From the NCBI RefSeq assembly GCF_000021485.1, contig NC_011761.1, positions 1,146,001 to 1,210,000 on the forward strand: a stretch of 64,000 bases of DNA, read 5' to 3'. Below the pieces are notes generated by a model. The model saw only the letters and a list, made by a program, of their open reading frames with translations, ran no database searches and was not told the DNA's origin. Source of the DNA: Acidithiobacillus ferrooxidans ATCC 23270. GTDB taxonomy: Bacteria > Pseudomonadota > Gammaproteobacteria > Acidithiobacillales > Acidithiobacillaceae. Shown here piece by piece: positions 44,981-51,109 of this stretch; positions within the stretch are counted from its first letter, which is position 1; the number at the start of each line of letters is the position of its first letter. Both the position numbers and the translations under genes were made by a program.

Positions 44981-45139
44981 TCAAAGTTGCAAGGGGTTCG
45001 GCGGGACCAGCGGCAACGTACGACGATTCCTGGTCCGCTGACTCCTTGTCCTTTGGATCTGCGGCAACGCGCCCATAGAAAGTTTGCTGCCCGGCTTGGG
45101 CATTTCCTGTTCCAACCAGCGATGAAAGCCCAGCCCTTG
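44981..45139 (-). pseudogene. IS1380-like transposase remnant, downstream part (left of IS21)
   Basis: Joined to 51110-51208 by removing the IS21 element and one copy of its 6-bp duplication, the frame continues HGEFI-QGLGFHRWLEQEMPK and stops at 44981. The start (TVLPFKLAATEEPMTAQSG) resembles IS1380-family transposases. Similarity ends near PKPGSKLS, so the gene was already truncated before or after IS21 entered. The family assignment is moderate. Confidence 0.55.
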
Positions 45140-45239
45140 GATAAATGCGCATTCCGGCGATCGTGGGCAGTGATTCCGCTGATCGTGGGCACCCGCGAAA
45201 AGCGTACATTCTGGTCACCGTCATTTTATGCTCAGGTGG

Positions 45240-45998
45240 TCACGATGGGTCAAGTTTTGGTGTTTCGTGAGCATCACGATGACGGCGCAGGGAGTCCCCT
45301 TTCAAATCGAGTCGGTGGGCACTTTGCAGCAACCGGTCCAGCACCGCATCGGCCACGGTCGGTTCACCCAAGTATTCGTGCCAATGGTCCACAGGGAGTT
45401 GGCTAGTAATTAGCGTGGCTCGTTGGTTCACCCGATCCTCAATGATCTCCAACAAATCTCGCACGTCTTCCCCGTTCATGGGGGCAAGCCCCCAGTCGTC
45501 TAAGATAATCAAATCCACCTTGGCGAGCGTATTCAGATAGCGACCGAAGCTGCCGTCACCGTGACGAATCCGGAGCTCCTCAAATAGGCGCGGTAAGCGC
45601 AAATAACGAACGCTTAATCCCTGACGGCAGGCCTGGTGGCCCAGGGCACAGCCCAGCCAGGTTTTGCCGGTGCCGGTGGCGCCAGTAATCAGCAGATTAT
45701 GGCCTTGCCGAATCCAGGTGTTCTGGATCAGTGCCATCACCTTGGATCGGTCCAGTCCACGGGAGCCGCGATAGTCGATATCCTCCACACAGGCATTCTG
45801 CTTGAGATGGGCGAGCTTCAGCAGGCGCGTCAGACGGCGTTGGTCCCGGGCACAGAGTTCTCGGTCCAGGAGCAGACCCAGACGCTCCTCGAAGGAGAGA
45901 TCCTGGATCTGGGGGAGACGAGATTGTTCGTCCAGAGCCTCAGCCATGGCGTAGAGATTGAGCTGACGCAGCGCGTTCAGAGTGGGTTGTTGTAACAT
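45240..45998 (-). CDS. istB: IS21 IstB helper ATPase
   Basis: Encodes 252 residues from the ATG at 45998 (AGGAAGG upstream); the frame opens earlier but that part overlaps istA. MLQQPTLNALRQLNLYAMAE is the usual IstB start. Walker A reads ITGATGTGKTWLGCALG and Walker B LIILDDWGLAPM; the AAA+ sensor block is TLITSQLPVDHWHEYLGEPT (shown to 20). IstB assists the IstA transposase in target selection. The frame is intact. Confidence 0.95.
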   Translation of the reverse strand: MLQQPTLNALRQLNLYAMAEALDEQSRLPQIQDLSFEERLGLLLDRELCARDQRRLTRLLKLAHLKQNACVEDIDYRGSRGLDRSKVMALIQNTWIRQGHNLLITGATGTGKTWLGCALGHQACRQGLSVRYLRLPRLFEELRIRHGDGSFGRYLNTLAKVDLIILDDWGLAPMNGEDVRDLLEIIEDRVNQRATLITSQLPVDHWHEYLGEPTVADAVLDRLLQSAHRLDLKGDSLRRHRDAHETPKLDPS

Positions 45999-46015
45999 GC
46001 GATTTTCCTTCCTGT

Positions 46016-46792
46016 TCAATGGTAGTAGCGGGGTCCGCGGATGTTGTCGTGAGCGGGCAGTGGAGCCGCCTTTTGAGATGTCTCCGGTCTCTGGTCCAGT
46101 CCCTGTTGCAGGATGGATTTGACGCTGTTGGTGGTCGGGGATCCCACCTTCATCGCCCGGAGACAAGCCGCATTCAGGCGGGTTTTGTCATAGCTGCGGG
46201 AAAGACTGAGCAAGCCCAGGCAGGAACGATATCCTTGCTCGGGATGGGGTTTGCTCTCCAGCTGCCAGCGCACCACATCCCGGGTCGCGGGGCCGATGGA
46301 GAGCGCCCAGTTCAGTAGCCGTCCAGGGGTCCATTCGCTGTGCCGCTGATGGGCCTTGGGCATGTGCTCCGTGAGCGTGCTGCAGCGGCCCTGACTGTCC
46401 TCGCGCAGGTGGCTGGCCACCCGTTGCTGCTGATGGAATATTTCTACGGTTCGGGCACTGACCAGCAGATCGACCCGCTCATGGGCCAGACGGTAAGGGA
46501 CCGAGTAACGATGCCTGTTATACTCCACGTGGTAGTCGATGCTGACCTTGGCGGTTTTCCAGACGGCAAAGGCATAATCCTGCGCCGGCAGGGGTTTTAG
46601 GGCGGGTCTATCCAAAGCCTCGAAGGTGCTTTTACGGCTGCCTGGCAGCCGTTTGAACGGACGCTGATTCAGATCCTCCAACAGGCGGCGGATCTCCATG
46701 TTGAGATCCATCAGCGAGAAGAACTGGAAGTGGCGTAGACGCGCCAGAATCCAGCGCTCCACCACCTGCACGCCGACCTCGACCTTCGCCTT
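46016..46792 (-). pseudogene. istA: IS21 transposase istA, 3' part
   Basis: The minus-strand frame [20 protein letters not shown] to the stop at 46016 is the C-terminal half of IstA (259 codons with stop). Its continuation upstream lies at 50097. The apparent start MMTYKKAK comes from the inserted element and is not native. The C-terminal domain with [20 protein letters not shown] is typical of IS21 transposases. Confidence 0.9.
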
Positions 46793-46896
46793 CTTGTAAG
46801 TCATCAACTGCCTGTCATTCCGACAGGCATTCGCCCATAGACGTCACCTTTGAGATCACTCATCCCTTCCACCCGCAGCGGGGACAGCGATTTGTT

Positions 46897-47109
46897 TTGA
46901 CCACGCGGCGGCAGAACTGGGGTGAGGACAGAGTCATGTATTACAACGCCCAGGGCCGTCTTTGCTCGATTCTGGCGTCGTGGACCAACGTTCCGGAAAT
47001 GGATTTCTTTGCTCAGGCATCGGCAGGTCGGTCATGGTTCAGAACCGATGACCTGCTGCAACTGTCTGCGCTGATTCGCAGTTTACGGGAGGCTCATGGT
47101 GACAAGTAA
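46897..47109 (+). CDS. DUF5372-like protein
   Basis: Encodes at least 70 residues from TTG 46897. RRQNWGEDRVMYYNAQGRLC then SILASWTNVPE matches the DUF5372 family that accompanies serine recombinases in small elements. The frame continues upstream with family-like [18 protein letters not shown] from 46843, but no ATG, GTG or TTG lies between the element end and 46897 in this frame. Either a non-canonical start (ATA 46837) is used or the 5' end was lost at integration. The function is unknown. Confidence 0.65.
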   Translation: MTTRRQNWGEDRVMYYNAQGRLCSILASWTNVPEMDFFAQASAGRSWFRTDDLLQLSALIRSLREAHGDK

Positions 47110-47110
47110 A

Positions 47111-47250
47111 TTATGCCGCACATGTCAGCATAATTATGCCGCAGGTGCACTCCTATACCCAGCCTGGCAAAGTGTTAACCGCTACTATATGACATTAAAC
47201 ACGAAGTTCTGTGGATTTATTGGGCTTGACATGAATTATCATGCGGCATA
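47111..47250 (+). promoter_or_regulatory. Repeated TTATGCCGCA sites before the HTH gene
   Basis: TTATGCCGCA occurs at 47111-47120 and 47134-47143, and inverted as TGCGGCATA at 47242-47250, between the DUF5372-like gene and the HTH gene. The spacing of 23 between the direct copies suggests same-face protein binding. They may be operators for the HTH protein or recombinase sites; this is inference. Confidence 0.5.
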
Positions 47251-47285
47251 TTTTATATTACACGTATGCTGCGGAGATTACCGAT

Positions 47286-47738
47286 ATGCCTCAGCCCGAT
47301 CCAAAGTGCGAACGTTTGCGACGCTTGGGCGTTCTCAACCCCGATGCGCAACGCGTGCGAGCGCCTTTATTCCAGTCTGGCGATTTCTTCGATCCCCAGG
47401 ACATGGTCCAGGTCAAATACGAAATGCTGCGCCACGCGCAAAATGGTGCCGCTTCCAAGTCCGTAGCCGCCACCCTGTTTGGTCTGTCGCGTCCCGCGTT
47501 CTATCAGGCAGAGTCCGATTTCAGGCGCGATGGCCTCTCTGGCTTGCTCCCCAAACAGCGCGGTCCCAAAGGCGCTCACAAGCTCACGGCCGAGGTGATG
47601 GCCTTTATCGAGGCGCGGCTAAACGCCGACGGTGGGATTCATGCCCGCACCTTGGCACAAGAAATTACCACGGCTTTAGGGCTTACCGTACACCCCCGCA
47701 GCATCGAACGCGCTGTGGCGCGCAAAAAAAAACGGTAA
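47286..47738 (+). CDS. Helix-turn-helix protein of the recombinase element (frame 0 product)
   Basis: Encodes 150 residues from ATG 47286 (CGGAG upstream); ATG 47241 is an alternative. AASKSVAATLFGLSRPAFYQ and the following RDGLSGLLPKQRGPKGAHKL form a transposase-type helix-turn-helix, as in the IS481/IS3 N-terminal domains, and HPRSIERAVARKKKR closes the frame. It ends just after a run of nine A (47724-47732) where a -1 shift would extend it through 48010. Confidence 0.75.
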   Translation: MPQPDPKCERLRRLGVLNPDAQRVRAPLFQSGDFFDPQDMVQVKYEMLRHAQNGAASKSVAATLFGLSRPAFYQAESDFRRDGLSGLLPKQRGPKGAHKLTAEVMAFIEARLNADGGIHARTLAQEITTALGLTVHPRSIERAVARKKKR

Positions 47739-48010
47739 CAGCCAGCGCGCCACGGCCACTGCCATCCTCTGCTACGGCCACTTACGAGGCGCTACGCCAG
47801 GATGTCCTGCAGGGATCTCCGTGTCATGAAGGCCGTGCGGCCTTACGCTACCATGGGATGCTGCCAGGTCTACAAATCTTGCTGCAAGCCACTGCGCCAA
47901 TGCCAACGACACGGCAGACATCCCCTCGCCCAGTAAGCGACCCAGAACTGGTCCGCCTGCTCGCCAATCTCGTTTTACAAACCTACTCGGAGGCTACCCA
48001 TGTCTACTGA
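47739..48010 (+). CDS. -1 frameshift extension of the helix-turn-helix protein
   Basis: Shifting -1 on A9 at 47724-47732 continues KKK-TVTASAPRPLPSSATAT and ATYEALRQDVLQGSPCHEGR, to a stop at 48008-48010. The fused product would have 241 residues. The extension has no good start codon of its own (ATG 47858 is late), overlaps the recombinase start by 11 bases and keeps an open frame of 90 codons, so expression by frameshifting is likely. No family is recognised for this part. Confidence 0.6.
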
Positions 48011-50084
48011 CCGGCTTCAGAAAATCACCACCGACCATCTCCGGCGCGACGCCTTTCTGTACGTCCGACAGTCTTCCTTGCGTCAGGTCATGGAAAACAC
48101 CGAGAGCACCAAGCGTCAGTATGCGCTACGTGATCGCGCCATTGCTCTGGGCTGGCCGATTGAGCGTGTCCACGTCATTGATAGTGATCTGGGTTTGTCC
48201 GGTGCTCATGCACAGGATCGCGATGGCTTCCAGCATCTGGTCTCTGAAGTAGCGAATGGGCATGCCGGTATCGTCATCGGTCTGGAGGTGTCCCGTCTTG
48301 CCCGCAACAATGCCGATTGGCACCGTCTGATCGAACTTTCCGCGCTGAGCCAAACCCTGATCCTTGATGAAGACGGGATCTACGATCCCGCCCATTTTAA
48401 TGATCGCTTGTTACTGGGCCTGAAGGGCGCGATGAGTGAGGCCGAATTGCACGTGCTCAAAGCCCGCCTGCAGGGTGGCATTCGCAATAAGGCCCGCCGC
48501 GGCGAACTCGAAATTCCCTTACCTATCGGCCTGACCTATCACCCTGGCGGCTCGGTCGTGTTGGATCCAGATGCCGCCATTCGTGCAGCCATTCAACTGG
48601 TTTTCGATACTTTTCGGCACACCCACTCAGCGACTGCGACGGTAAAACGCTTTCGTCGCGAGGGCTGGTTATTCCCACGTCGAATCCGACGCGGTATCGG
48701 CAAAGGAGAGGTGATGTGGGGCGCGATGGAACACTGTCGCGTTATCCAGGTGCTACACAATCCCCGCTATGCCGGTGCCTTTGTCTATGGACGCACACGA
48801 GGGGCCTATCGTCCAGGGAGCAGGCATACGGCCGTCACCGTTCCGCGGGAGGACTGGCAAGTCCTGATCCGCGATGCCCATGCCGGTTATATCGATTGGG
48901 AGGACTTCGAGCGCAATCAGATGATCTTGAAGCAGAATGCCGCAGGGTTTGGTCAATCCCAAAGAGGCAGTGTCCCACGGGAAGGGGTTGGCCTTCTGCA
49001 AGGTCGGGTCGTATGCGGTATTTGCGGGGCTCGCATGCGGGTACGGTACCAAGAGGTGGCGGGGAGGTTGGAGCCTTACTATATCTGCACCGAGAACGCG
49101 GTGCGGCGTGCCGGCAAACCCTGTCAGTCCATTCGTGGCCGCGCGGTCGATGACGTGATCAGCACCCTGTTATTGGATCGCGTAGCACCAACTGCCATCG
49201 AGGTGACACTGGCCGTCGAGGAAGAAATCGCCGGTCGTATTGCACAAGCGCAGGCCCAGCGGACACTCCAAATGGAACGTGCGCGTTACGATGCCGAGCT
49301 TGCGAGGCGTCGCTATCTGCTTGTTGATCCCAGCAACCGTCTTGTTGCGGATACCTTGGAGGCGGACTGGAATGAACGCCTGCGCCACCTGGATCTGCTG
49401 CAACAGGAACAAGATCGTCGACAGCAGGCAGACCAGAAATTGCTCAGTACACAGGAGTGCGCACAAATTCGCCAATTGGCAGAAGATTTCCCGCGAATAT
49501 GGAACGATAACCGAGTGGCGCCGTTGGACCGCAAGCGCATGGTGGCTTTACTGATCGATGATGTCACCTTGATTAAGGCCGAACGCGTGACCCTCCAAGT
49601 GCGTTTTCGCGGTGGCCAAACCGCCACTCTGGAAGTCGACAAACCCAAACCCATCGCGCAGATCCGCAAGACGCTTCCTGAAGTCGTTGCCAAAATAGAT
49701 GCTCTGCTGGAAACTTGTAGCGACCGGGAAGTTGCCGCAGAACTCAATGCGTTAGGCTATATGAACTGGCGTGGCGACACTTTCACCGCCAAGAAGGTGA
49801 CCAGCTTGCGCAATGCTTACCACCTCGTCAGCCGCCATGATCGGCTGCGCGCCCGAGGTATGCTGACAGCTCATGAGGTGGCGGCCCAACTGAACGTGTG
49901 CGCGACGACAGTACATGATTGGGGCCGTGTGGGCGTACTGCAGGTGCATCGGTACGGTAATGACCGGCGTTGCTTATATGCGCCCCCAGGCGACGTTGTT
50001 GTAGTAAAAGGACAAGGCGGACGATACTGTGCTGTGCCGCCGAGGCTTATTCCTGTGCAATCTACTGAACAAGGTGCAATCTGA
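48000..50084 (+). CDS. Large serine recombinase
   Basis: Encodes 694 residues. The catalytic domain has FLYVRQSSLRQVMENTEST with the nucleophilic serine, IGLEVSRLARNNADW and LLGLKGAMSEAELHVLKAR. A recombinase domain follows, then a zinc ribbon (VVCGICGARMRVRYQEVAG with later Cys), a coiled-coil region near 400-480 and a C-terminal helix-turn-helix (LTAHEVAAQLNVCATTVHDW). It should integrate and excise the element through a short core, here the CCTT in istA. The frame is intact, so the element may be active. Confidence 0.93.
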   Translation: MSTDRLQKITTDHLRRDAFLYVRQSSLRQVMENTESTKRQYALRDRAIALGWPIERVHVIDSDLGLSGAHAQDRDGFQHLVSEVANGHAGIVIGLEVSRLARNNADWHRLIELSALSQTLILDEDGIYDPAHFNDRLLLGLKGAMSEAELHVLKARLQGGIRNKARRGELEIPLPIGLTYHPGGSVVLDPDAAIRAAIQLVFDTFRHTHSATATVKRFRREGWLFPRRIRRGIGKGEVMWGAMEHCRVIQVLHNPRYAGAFVYGRTRGAYRPGSRHTAVTVPREDWQVLIRDAHAGYIDWEDFERNQMILKQNAAGFGQSQRGSVPREGVGLLQGRVVCGICGARMRVRYQEVAGRLEPYYICTENAVRRAGKPCQSIRGRAVDDVISTLLLDRVAPTAIEVTLAVEEEIAGRIAQAQAQRTLQMERARYDAELARRRYLLVDPSNRLVADTLEADWNERLRHLDLLQQEQDRRQQADQKLLSTQECAQIRQLAEDFPRIWNDNRVAPLDRKRMVALLIDDVTLIKAERVTLQVRFRGGQTATLEVDKPKPIAQIRKTLPEVVAKIDALLETCSDREVAAELNALGYMNWRGDTFTAKKVTSLRNAYHLVSRHDRLRARGMLTAHEVAAQLNVCATTVHDWGRVGVLQVHRYGNDRRCLYAPPGDVVVVKGQGGRYCAVPPRLIPVQSTEQGAI

Positions 50085-50096
50085 TGCAGACTCCTT

Positions 50097-50861
50097 GTCT
50101 TTGGGTTTATAGGGGCGTGTCGGAAGCACTACGGCCCCGTAATGGGTGGCCAGATCCTGATAGCTGCGATTGATCTGCGGCTCATAGCGAGACGCCTTCG
50201 TAACGGCGGCTTTGAGGTTGTCGGGGACCAGCAGTACGGGGGCTCCGCCAAAGTACCGCAGGGCACGCACATGGGAGCCCAGAAAGTCGCTGAGGCTCTG
50301 GCTCCAGGTGGCTTCGCAATAGGTATAGCTGGAAGCCCCCAGCACCGCTACAAAGATCTGGGCCTGGCGAATCTCGCCGGTGCCGGGGTCAATGACTGGC
50401 ACCGTGGGGCCGGCATAATCGATAAAGAGCTTGTCACCAGCCAAATGGTTCTGGCGCATGCTGCGCTTGAGACGGCCTTTCCACGCCCGATAGTGGGTGC
50501 AGAACTGGGAATACTGATAAACACGTTGCTCGTCATGCGCTGCTACATACTCCTCCCACAGCAGCTGTAGGGTCATCCCCTTGCGCCGCATCTCCGTGTG
50601 GATAGCCGCAAAATCAGGCATCACCGGCGCCGTCACAGTGGCGGATCGATGGCCGGGGAAAAGCAGCGCTTCCAGTTTTGCCGGGTCCATTTCGGGGGGC
50701 AAAGGCCATGAGACACTGGCCTGTTCGGCCTTCTGCAAATATTTGCCAACCGCTCCCTTAGAAAGCTGGCAGGCCTGCGCAATTTGCCGCTGGCTGAAGC
50801 CTGCGGCATGTAAACGGATTACTTCTTGAATTGCTCTCATGGTCATCCTCGGTGTGGGCAT
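50097..50861 (-). pseudogene. istA: IS21 transposase istA, 5' part
   Basis: Starts at the ATG at 50861 (MPTPRMTMRAIQEVIRLHAA), after GGAG. The HTH (FSQRQIAQACQLSKGAVGKY) and the DDE domain (LFIDYAGPTVPV; VLLVPDNLKAAV; TRPYKPKD) are complete to codon 255, where the serine-recombinase element begins. The continuation of this frame past 50096 encodes foreign residues. Removal of the insert restores the gene. Confidence 0.92.
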
Positions 50862-50952
50862 CCCTGATCTCCTGTAAAAAGAGCCAAGGATGCCGTTTAA
50901 GCCAATGAATGACCAAAATGTTTTCTTTTCGCCAAGGGGAAACCGGGACACC

Positions 50953-51109
50953 GTTCCGGCATCGTGGGCAGTGATTCCGGCATCGTGGGCACCGATTCCG
51001 GAAAACCCACAAAAGTGCCCACGATCAATCGTAATGGCTGCCCACGATCAATCGGAATCACTGTCCACGATCAAACGGAATGGGTGCCCACGATGCCCCG
51101 GAATACGCA
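50953..51109 (-). repeat. IS21 right-end repeat cluster
   Basis: GATCGTGGGCA-type repeats occur six times: two as ATTCCGGCATCGTGGGCA-like copies at 50953-50999 and four in the opposite orientation between 51017 and 51102. They are the multiple transposase-binding sites of IS21 ends. The left end (45146-45195) holds two copies. Confidence 0.8.

Follow-up and report, generated by a model that had tools for sequence, protein, structure and literature searches.

Small serine-recombinase elements inserted at the catalytic-glutamate motif of DDE transposase genes

Results

We analyzed a 64,000-nt stretch of Acidithiobacillus ferrooxidans ATCC 23270 DNA (hereafter the window; all coordinates are window positions), in which a 3,304-bp element encoding a large serine recombinase (LSR) splits istA, the transposase gene of an IS21 insertion sequence (IS). 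Comparison of this element with its relatives makes it highly probable that it belongs to a widespread group of small (≈3.3 kb), autonomous LSR elements whose attB is the part of DDE transposase genes that specifies the [K/N]xxxE motif, whose strands are exchanged at a TT dinucleotide, and whose DUF5372 gene is restored in the excised circle.

Removal of the element restores istA

The insert is oriented on the strand opposite to istA and contains a DUF5372 gene, a helix-turn-helix (HTH) gene, a short open reading frame (ORF), and the gene of a 694-residue LSR (Table 1). When the flanks were joined at one copy of TT, a single open IstA frame of 513 residues resulted, consisting of 255 codons (50097-50861) followed by 258 codons plus the stop (46016-46792) on the minus strand. 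The insertion point lies four codons upstream of the last catalytic residue (Glu) of IstA. Intact istA genes whose products are 95-96% identical occur in three sister Acidithiobacillus genomes (G014, G005, and G002), and the joined flanks aligned to these empty sites with no gap across the junction and with 91-92% nucleotide identity. Thus, rejoining and the sister empty sites both confirmed the original prediction from this sequence, that a serine-recombinase element splits istA and that its removal gives a 513-residue frame. The predicted content of an element of about 3.3 kb, with an HTH gene and a 694-residue recombinase, was likewise borne out (PF13518 for the HTH gene; PF00239, PF07508, and PF13408 for the recombinase).

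Relatives share a TT core

Relatives were collected from a scan of species genomes, where 140 loci code for relatives and the best 80 were retained, and from plasmid records, 592 of which contained a match. Random genome samples yielded few new members (2 of 199 and 2 of 299, genomes already known included). Element ends were set from the element alone, as TT, 12 bases, and a CAACTGC-like motif on the left, and as a GAGGTGCAGTATGAAGCGTAGCCC-like motif followed by TT on the right; L055, L062, and L069, which are Bradyrhizobium-like and whose left motif is weaker, were added by hand. The related elements have a common anatomy of TT core, DUF5372, HTH gene, and an LSR of ≈690 residues. In a first alignment, more than 20 loci, belonging to Alpha-, Beta-, and Gammaproteobacteria, Acidobacteria, and other groups, had IstA split at query residue 317-319; in istA genes of several phyla, more than 20 in all, the split fell at the codon before AKVE.

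The same element in two different target genes allowed the exchange to be narrowed to TT. An identical 3,333-bp element occupies two different istA genes in Paraburkholderia phymatum pBPHY02, where divergence on the right begins exactly at TT, and a Caballeronia element type that likewise occurs in two different istA genes sets the same limit, TT, on the left side. This dinucleotide has the attributes of an LSR core, being identical at both ends, giving in-frame rejoining, and having a natural empty site. The original prediction had placed the junctions at CCTT and had called for the core to be defined by comparing several insertions; CCTT is indeed common to both ends in the window (46789-46792 and 50093-50096; 3,304 bp from repeat to repeat), but only TT is required across the relatives. 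Its expectation that other copies have the same ends also held, as the matches listed among 204 places in 74 plasmid records, in a search with the joined ends of one element, stop at the core on either side. The whole contigs of two loci (L024 and L026) span exactly TT to TT, as expected for multi-copy repeats that break assemblies, or for circles.

The target encodes the catalytic-Glu motif of DDE transposases

Among distinct sites that are not of the IS91 type, the core always falls within a minus-strand codon for Lys or Asn, with a Glu codon four codons on (48/48); shifts of 1-12 bp satisfied this rule in 0/48 cases, and random TT dinucleotides in 3.0%. Both halves of the target gene were open in 40 of 42. 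The rejoined proteins assign the targets to IS21 (motif KPKDKAKVE), IS3 (SRRGNCWDNAVMESFF), ISNCY (SPQAKGRVER), IS481 (SPQTNGIVERF), and IS66 (APLDNNIVERS). Scores against the NCBIfam models were 208 bits for a rejoined IS21 target (cut-off 160), 329 and 191 bits for IS3 (160), 374 and 496 bits for ISNCY (250), and 282 bits for IS481 (224); the IS66 targets are partial, with two short pieces below the cut-off. Because the rejoined proteins carry textbook motifs and pass these cut-offs, we identify the site as the catalytic-Glu motif of DDE transposases. The preferred attB that had been predicted at the KPKDKAK codons of IS21 was therefore correct as to the site, which recurs in the other istA genes, but too narrow, as the target is the [K/N]xxxE motif of several DDE families; TT and the Glu codon are kept in all 48 sites, and CCTT itself is not needed.

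Closely related elements occupy different target families (L017 in IS3 and L010 and L011 in IS21; L101 in ISNCY and L102 in IS21). With target labels assigned by eye from the junction motifs, IS21, IS3, ISNCY, and IS481 targets alternate among close relatives in the tree, which implies that the DNA of the motif is recognized rather than one IS family. One recombinase subclade targets ISCR/IS91 transposases instead, on the other strand, at RRAF-DVLxCPxCG (L057, L066, L071, L074, L075, L077, and L079); the six of these that were long enough for the tree form one branch. Four loci (L156, L157, L158, and L166) were fetched after the rules had been fixed. All four contain the circle ORF and the A run described below, and in three of them the left flank encodes KxxxE; in L157, the right half is transposase-like and the left half unreadable.

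A position-weight score separated most of the pooled sites from 117,404 background positions, but it was not used as proof of enzyme specificity, because homology among the target genes inflates it. In L020 (and L067), the two flanks belong to different transposase families, with ISNCY to one side of the element and IS3 to the other, as expected from recombination between two copies.

The DUF5372 gene is predicted to be complete only in the circle

DUF5372 was assigned through PF17342 (90.8 bits compared to a gathering score of 25; profile positions 1-77 of 78). The original prediction had the family right, but its "DUF5372-like" understated the match and overlooked that the gene is startless when integrated, and its remark that the element has no obvious cargo missed both this putative circle-dependent gene and the frameshift described below. 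In the integrated window element, there is no ATG, GTG, or TTG from the core to the domain, and an in-frame ATG in this interval is present in just 3 of 56 distinct elements. Instead, the conserved right end consists of a Shine-Dalgarno-like sequence and an ATG or GTG. The circle junction of the window element would read ATG CAG ACT CC-TT-CT TGT AAG..., in frame with DUF5372. All 56 distinct elements have a DUF5372 frame that is open across this junction and preceded by a Shine-Dalgarno-like sequence, compared to 32/112 for the other frames, and the circle ORF runs into DUF5372 in all but 3 of 68 loci. The distances from start to core and from core to domain vary by whole codons only, and the predicted circle products mostly have 100-120 residues and an M-K-R-S-P-like start. 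Because the start lies at the other end of the element and the gene is whole in the circle, annotated DUF5372 products in public records are probably truncated.

The start codon at the right end might alternatively be a by-product of a conserved recombinase binding site, with DUF5372 not made from the circle. The motif lies in the attP arm, where conservation is needed for binding anyway, and it could double as such a site, in which case its conservation would not be purely translational; this point weighs against a circle-dependent gene. However, the retention of ribosome-binding sequence, start, and open frame in every distinct element, despite lengths that vary in codon steps, and the far rarer openness of the other frames make the by-product explanation unlikely.

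The predicted fold of DUF5372 (predicted local distance difference test score, pLDDT, 81.5) is an SH3/KOW-like barrel with a C-terminal helix. We draw no function from this fold, because the matches are only generic (best VIA-align Z 5.8; Foldseek E 0.02).

A slippery A run may fuse the HTH protein to a second frame

The HTH part of the next gene resembles the N-terminal DNA-binding domains of IS481, IS630, and ISNCY transposases. A run of seven to ten A residues occurs shortly before the HTH stop in 56/56 distinct elements, nearly always in the phase A AAA AAA C. In 51 of the 56, the -1 frame has no stop between this run and the start of the recombinase gene, and its product is homologous throughout. 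This HTH/-1 fusion layout is that of OrfA and OrfAB of IS3. In the Sinorhizobium elements (L101-L103 and L124), by contrast, the A9 run is followed by a +1-frame ORF, which possesses a separate ATG. These elements prompted a reading of the run as a +1 site in general, which was dropped, since the -1 frame is open in 51/56. Ahead of the HTH gene, the window contains a direct repeat of AATTATGCCGCA (two copies, 47109-47143) with an inverted partner at 47242-47255, which are possibly an operator.

The recombinase has the domain order of LSRs

The recombinase contains a resolvase domain (residues 18-169), a Recombinase domain (197-313), and a zinc ribbon (332-389), in the order found in LSRs, and the nearest solved structures are complexes of the SPbeta integrase YokA and isolated recombinase catalytic domains. 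Membership in the IS607 family was rejected, as the catalytic domain is N-terminal here and C-terminal, after the DNA-binding domain, in IS607. Also rejected were an equivalog of XisF of the fdxN element, which is the closest NCBIfam model but scores 72.5 bits compared to a cut-off of 375, and the CcrA, CcrB, and CcrC recombinases of staphylococcal cassette chromosomes (39.9, 23.5, and 26.6 bits compared to cut-offs of 700-900). DUF4368 gave no Pfam match at E 0.001; in the data given by Durrant et al. (2022; PMC10083194) for the TndX-like multi-targeting clade, 63% of members have this domain and 37% are also without it. A search of 50,697 phage records found no relative spanning 80% of the recombinase protein.

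The host IS21 and other features of the window

The host of the element qualifies as IS21 by its istB, the N-terminal half of istA, and its terminal repeats (inverted repeats I1-I4 and direct repeats D1 and D3), with istA split. Uninterrupted copies of the same IS21 were found in sister Acidithiobacillus genomes (L104, L105, and L106), where the L105 match lists one in-frame TAA. A 20-bp sequence at 45037-45056 is 85% like the right junction (GCTGACTCCTTGTCCTTTGG), encodes DPKDK on the minus strand, and is possibly a relic of an older insertion. In L060 (7509-10909) and L062 (7508-10895), a second insertion of ≈3.4 kb lies in istA at the PDGYRYSR codons, with AACATAA-type flanking repeats. It contains no LSR match and is therefore a different kind of element.

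Table 1. Features of the element and its host IS21 in the window
Feature	Coordinates	Strand	Remarks
Integrated element	46791..50094	+	3,304 bp, with a single TT repeat counted; empty site of sister genomes aligns without a gap
Left crossover core TT (attL)	46791..46792		Within the Lys codon of IstA PKD-K-AKVE; point of divergence between elements in different istA genes
DUF5372 gene body	46792..47109	+	Open from the junction; no start codon before the domain when integrated; domain ≈46855-47085
HTH gene (HTH_28/HTH_32; PF13518)	47286..47738	+	Start by similarity to relatives; longest ORF from 47241
A9 slippery run	47724..47732	+	GCG CGC AAA AAA AAA CGG TAA
-1 frame ORF	47732..48010	+	Fused to the HTH protein by putative slippage; end overlaps the recombinase start
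LSR gene, 694 aa	48000..50084	+	PF00239, PF07508, and PF13408; phrog_95 integrase
Shine-Dalgarno (AAGG) and ATG predicted for DUF5372	50071..50086	+	ATG 50084-50086 overlaps the recombinase stop 50082-50084; circle only
Right crossover core TT (attR)	50095..50096		
istA, N-terminal part	50095..50861	-	255 codons, ending ...RPYKPKD-K; NCBIfam NF033546, 226.6 bits on the longer ORF
istA, C-terminal part	46016..46792	-	Starts K-AKVE with the catalytic Glu; contains Mu-transpos_C_2
istB of the host IS21	45240..45998	-	Intact; NF038214, 259 bits
Host IS21, approximate extent	45159..51097		19-22 bp terminal motifs, repeated and inverted at both ends

Distant relatives lie in other genes of mobile elements

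More distant relatives (34-52% identity), from the same and other plasmids, had their targets read by eye from the junction motifs. These targets are the P-loop of IstB (L133 and L136), the YNxxRPH region of IS3-type transposases (L140, L142, and L146), IS66 DNNAAE (L137 and L141), IS66 TnpB (L150 and L159-L161), and the reverse transcriptase of group II introns (L135, L152, L153, and L163). Several of these distant LSR elements are present as identical multi-copy elements. For the IstB pair, which was checked by hand, we did not succeed in restoring the frame by removal, and we make no claim of frame restoration for any distant subfamily (34-44% identity).

It is about as likely as not that these elements together form a broad serine-recombinase superfamily specialized on other mobile elements. 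Its members would recognize the DNA of the most conserved motifs (DDE Glu, IstB P-loop, IS3 YNxxRPH, IS66 TnpB, ISCR, and group II intron reverse transcriptase) and reversibly silence transposition, and in those with DUF5372, this gene, complete only in the circle, would let the element sense which state it is in.

Discussion

These sequence comparisons suggest the following cycle. The recombinase would join the attP of an excised circle to an attB formed by the DNA for the [K/N]xxxE motif of DDE transposases, with strand exchange at the TT core and in a single fixed orientation. Integration would break the host transposase four codons before the catalytic Glu, so that the host transposon could no longer move itself, and it would part DUF5372 from its ribosome-binding site and start codon. 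Excision, if the reaction is reversible, would restore both the transposase and DUF5372 genes to the base. The cycle agrees with the original prediction of a reversible serine-recombinase insertion. Two products would come from the HTH gene: the short HTH protein itself and, when slippage on the A run leads into the -1 frame, its fusion form; one of these two, or DUF5372 produced from the circle, is the likeliest agent to control direction or expression.

Several observations weigh against this model. The window element is a single copy in its own genome (2,982,397 bp, one contig), so that recent mobility of this copy is putative. Plasmid records contained no excised circle or contiguous attP for the one type searched, the Sinorhizobium element. 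L048, L072, and L073 give no DUF5372 circle ORF, and the flanks of L065, L059, and L048 could not be assigned to a transposase. The second ORF is in the +1 and not the -1 frame in L101-L103 and in L058. Finally, sites pooled from many recombinases do not separate what the enzyme needs from what is conserved in the transposase motif.

A survivorship explanation would have the recombinase insert with little preference, copies being retained only where they hit a dispensable transposase gene. Such genes are numerous as well as dispensable, and Durrant et al. (2022; PMC10083194) describe multi-targeting LSRs with a TT core and loose specificity. Yet survivorship cannot place 48 of 48 insertions in one codon phase and at one motif position in several transposase families, and intergenic sites would persist equally, which makes this explanation very improbable. 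Exact in-frame restoration and the closeness of the XisF model would fit programmed excision as in the fdxN element, with the insert retained so that a split gene can be restored on cue; this origin is barely credible given the XisF score far below its cut-off, a transposase as the split gene, and hosts, target families, and phyla that vary freely. Because the host IS21 keeps both ends and istB, another IstAB could move it in trans and carry the element along, but we give practically no credence to the recombinase genes being passenger or accessory genes of IS21 between the istA halves, as the same element occurs in different istA genes, sister IS21 copies are without it, and close relatives lie in IS3, ISNCY, IS481, IS66, and ISCR genes.

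A group of motif-targeting LSR elements differs from known systems in several ways. LSRs are known for single safe sites in host genes. Those of phages and integrative elements (SPbeta YokA, phiC31, Bxb1, and TndX/TnpX) have in common with the present enzyme the Resolvase-Recombinase-zinc-ribbon order, a 2-bp core, and a fixed orientation, whereas the present element has 3.3 kb without phage or conjugation genes and is aimed at a catalytic motif in other mobile elements. Inteins, homing introns, and group II introns insert at the most conserved codons of their target genes, and group II introns are frequent in IS elements; unlike these, the present element has no splicing, and its target gene is broken until the DNA is excised. 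In mycobacteriophages with integration-dependent immunity, attP lies inside a gene and integration alters the gene that spans it; by contrast, integration here would move the start codon and ribosome site away, and the gene is DUF5372 and not a repressor. IS607 elements are likewise small and moved by a serine recombinase, but PMC4058570 describes an inverted domain order and minimal target specificity, whereas the present catalytic domain is N-terminal and the target precise. The LSRs that Durrant et al. (2022) describe as aimed at one conserved coding site, alongside their multi-targeting LSRs, resemble the present recombinase in both site and TT core; the targets named in the main-text passages on them are prolyl isomerase, Mg-chelatase, and competence genes, with no transposase-specific group among them. 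Thus, the enzyme class is well known, and in the open-licence PubMed Central papers searched we found no description of this element group, with nothing on DUF5372, on LSR insertions in istA or other transposase genes, or on the rhizobial relatives.

Because dozens of relatives in many phyla hit the same spot in several unrelated transposon families, the element appears to live by colonizing and reversibly disabling other mobile DNA. If this is true, it would be a hyperparasite whose targets are almost inexhaustible, whose burden on the host cell is small, and whose disabling of transposons is reversible. The group would also supply an existing collection of recombinases along with dozens of natural attB sites that vary between IS families, from which the way these enzymes read DNA could be learned, and the putative circle-dependent DUF5372 gene would offer a testable handle on how the element knows its state of integration.

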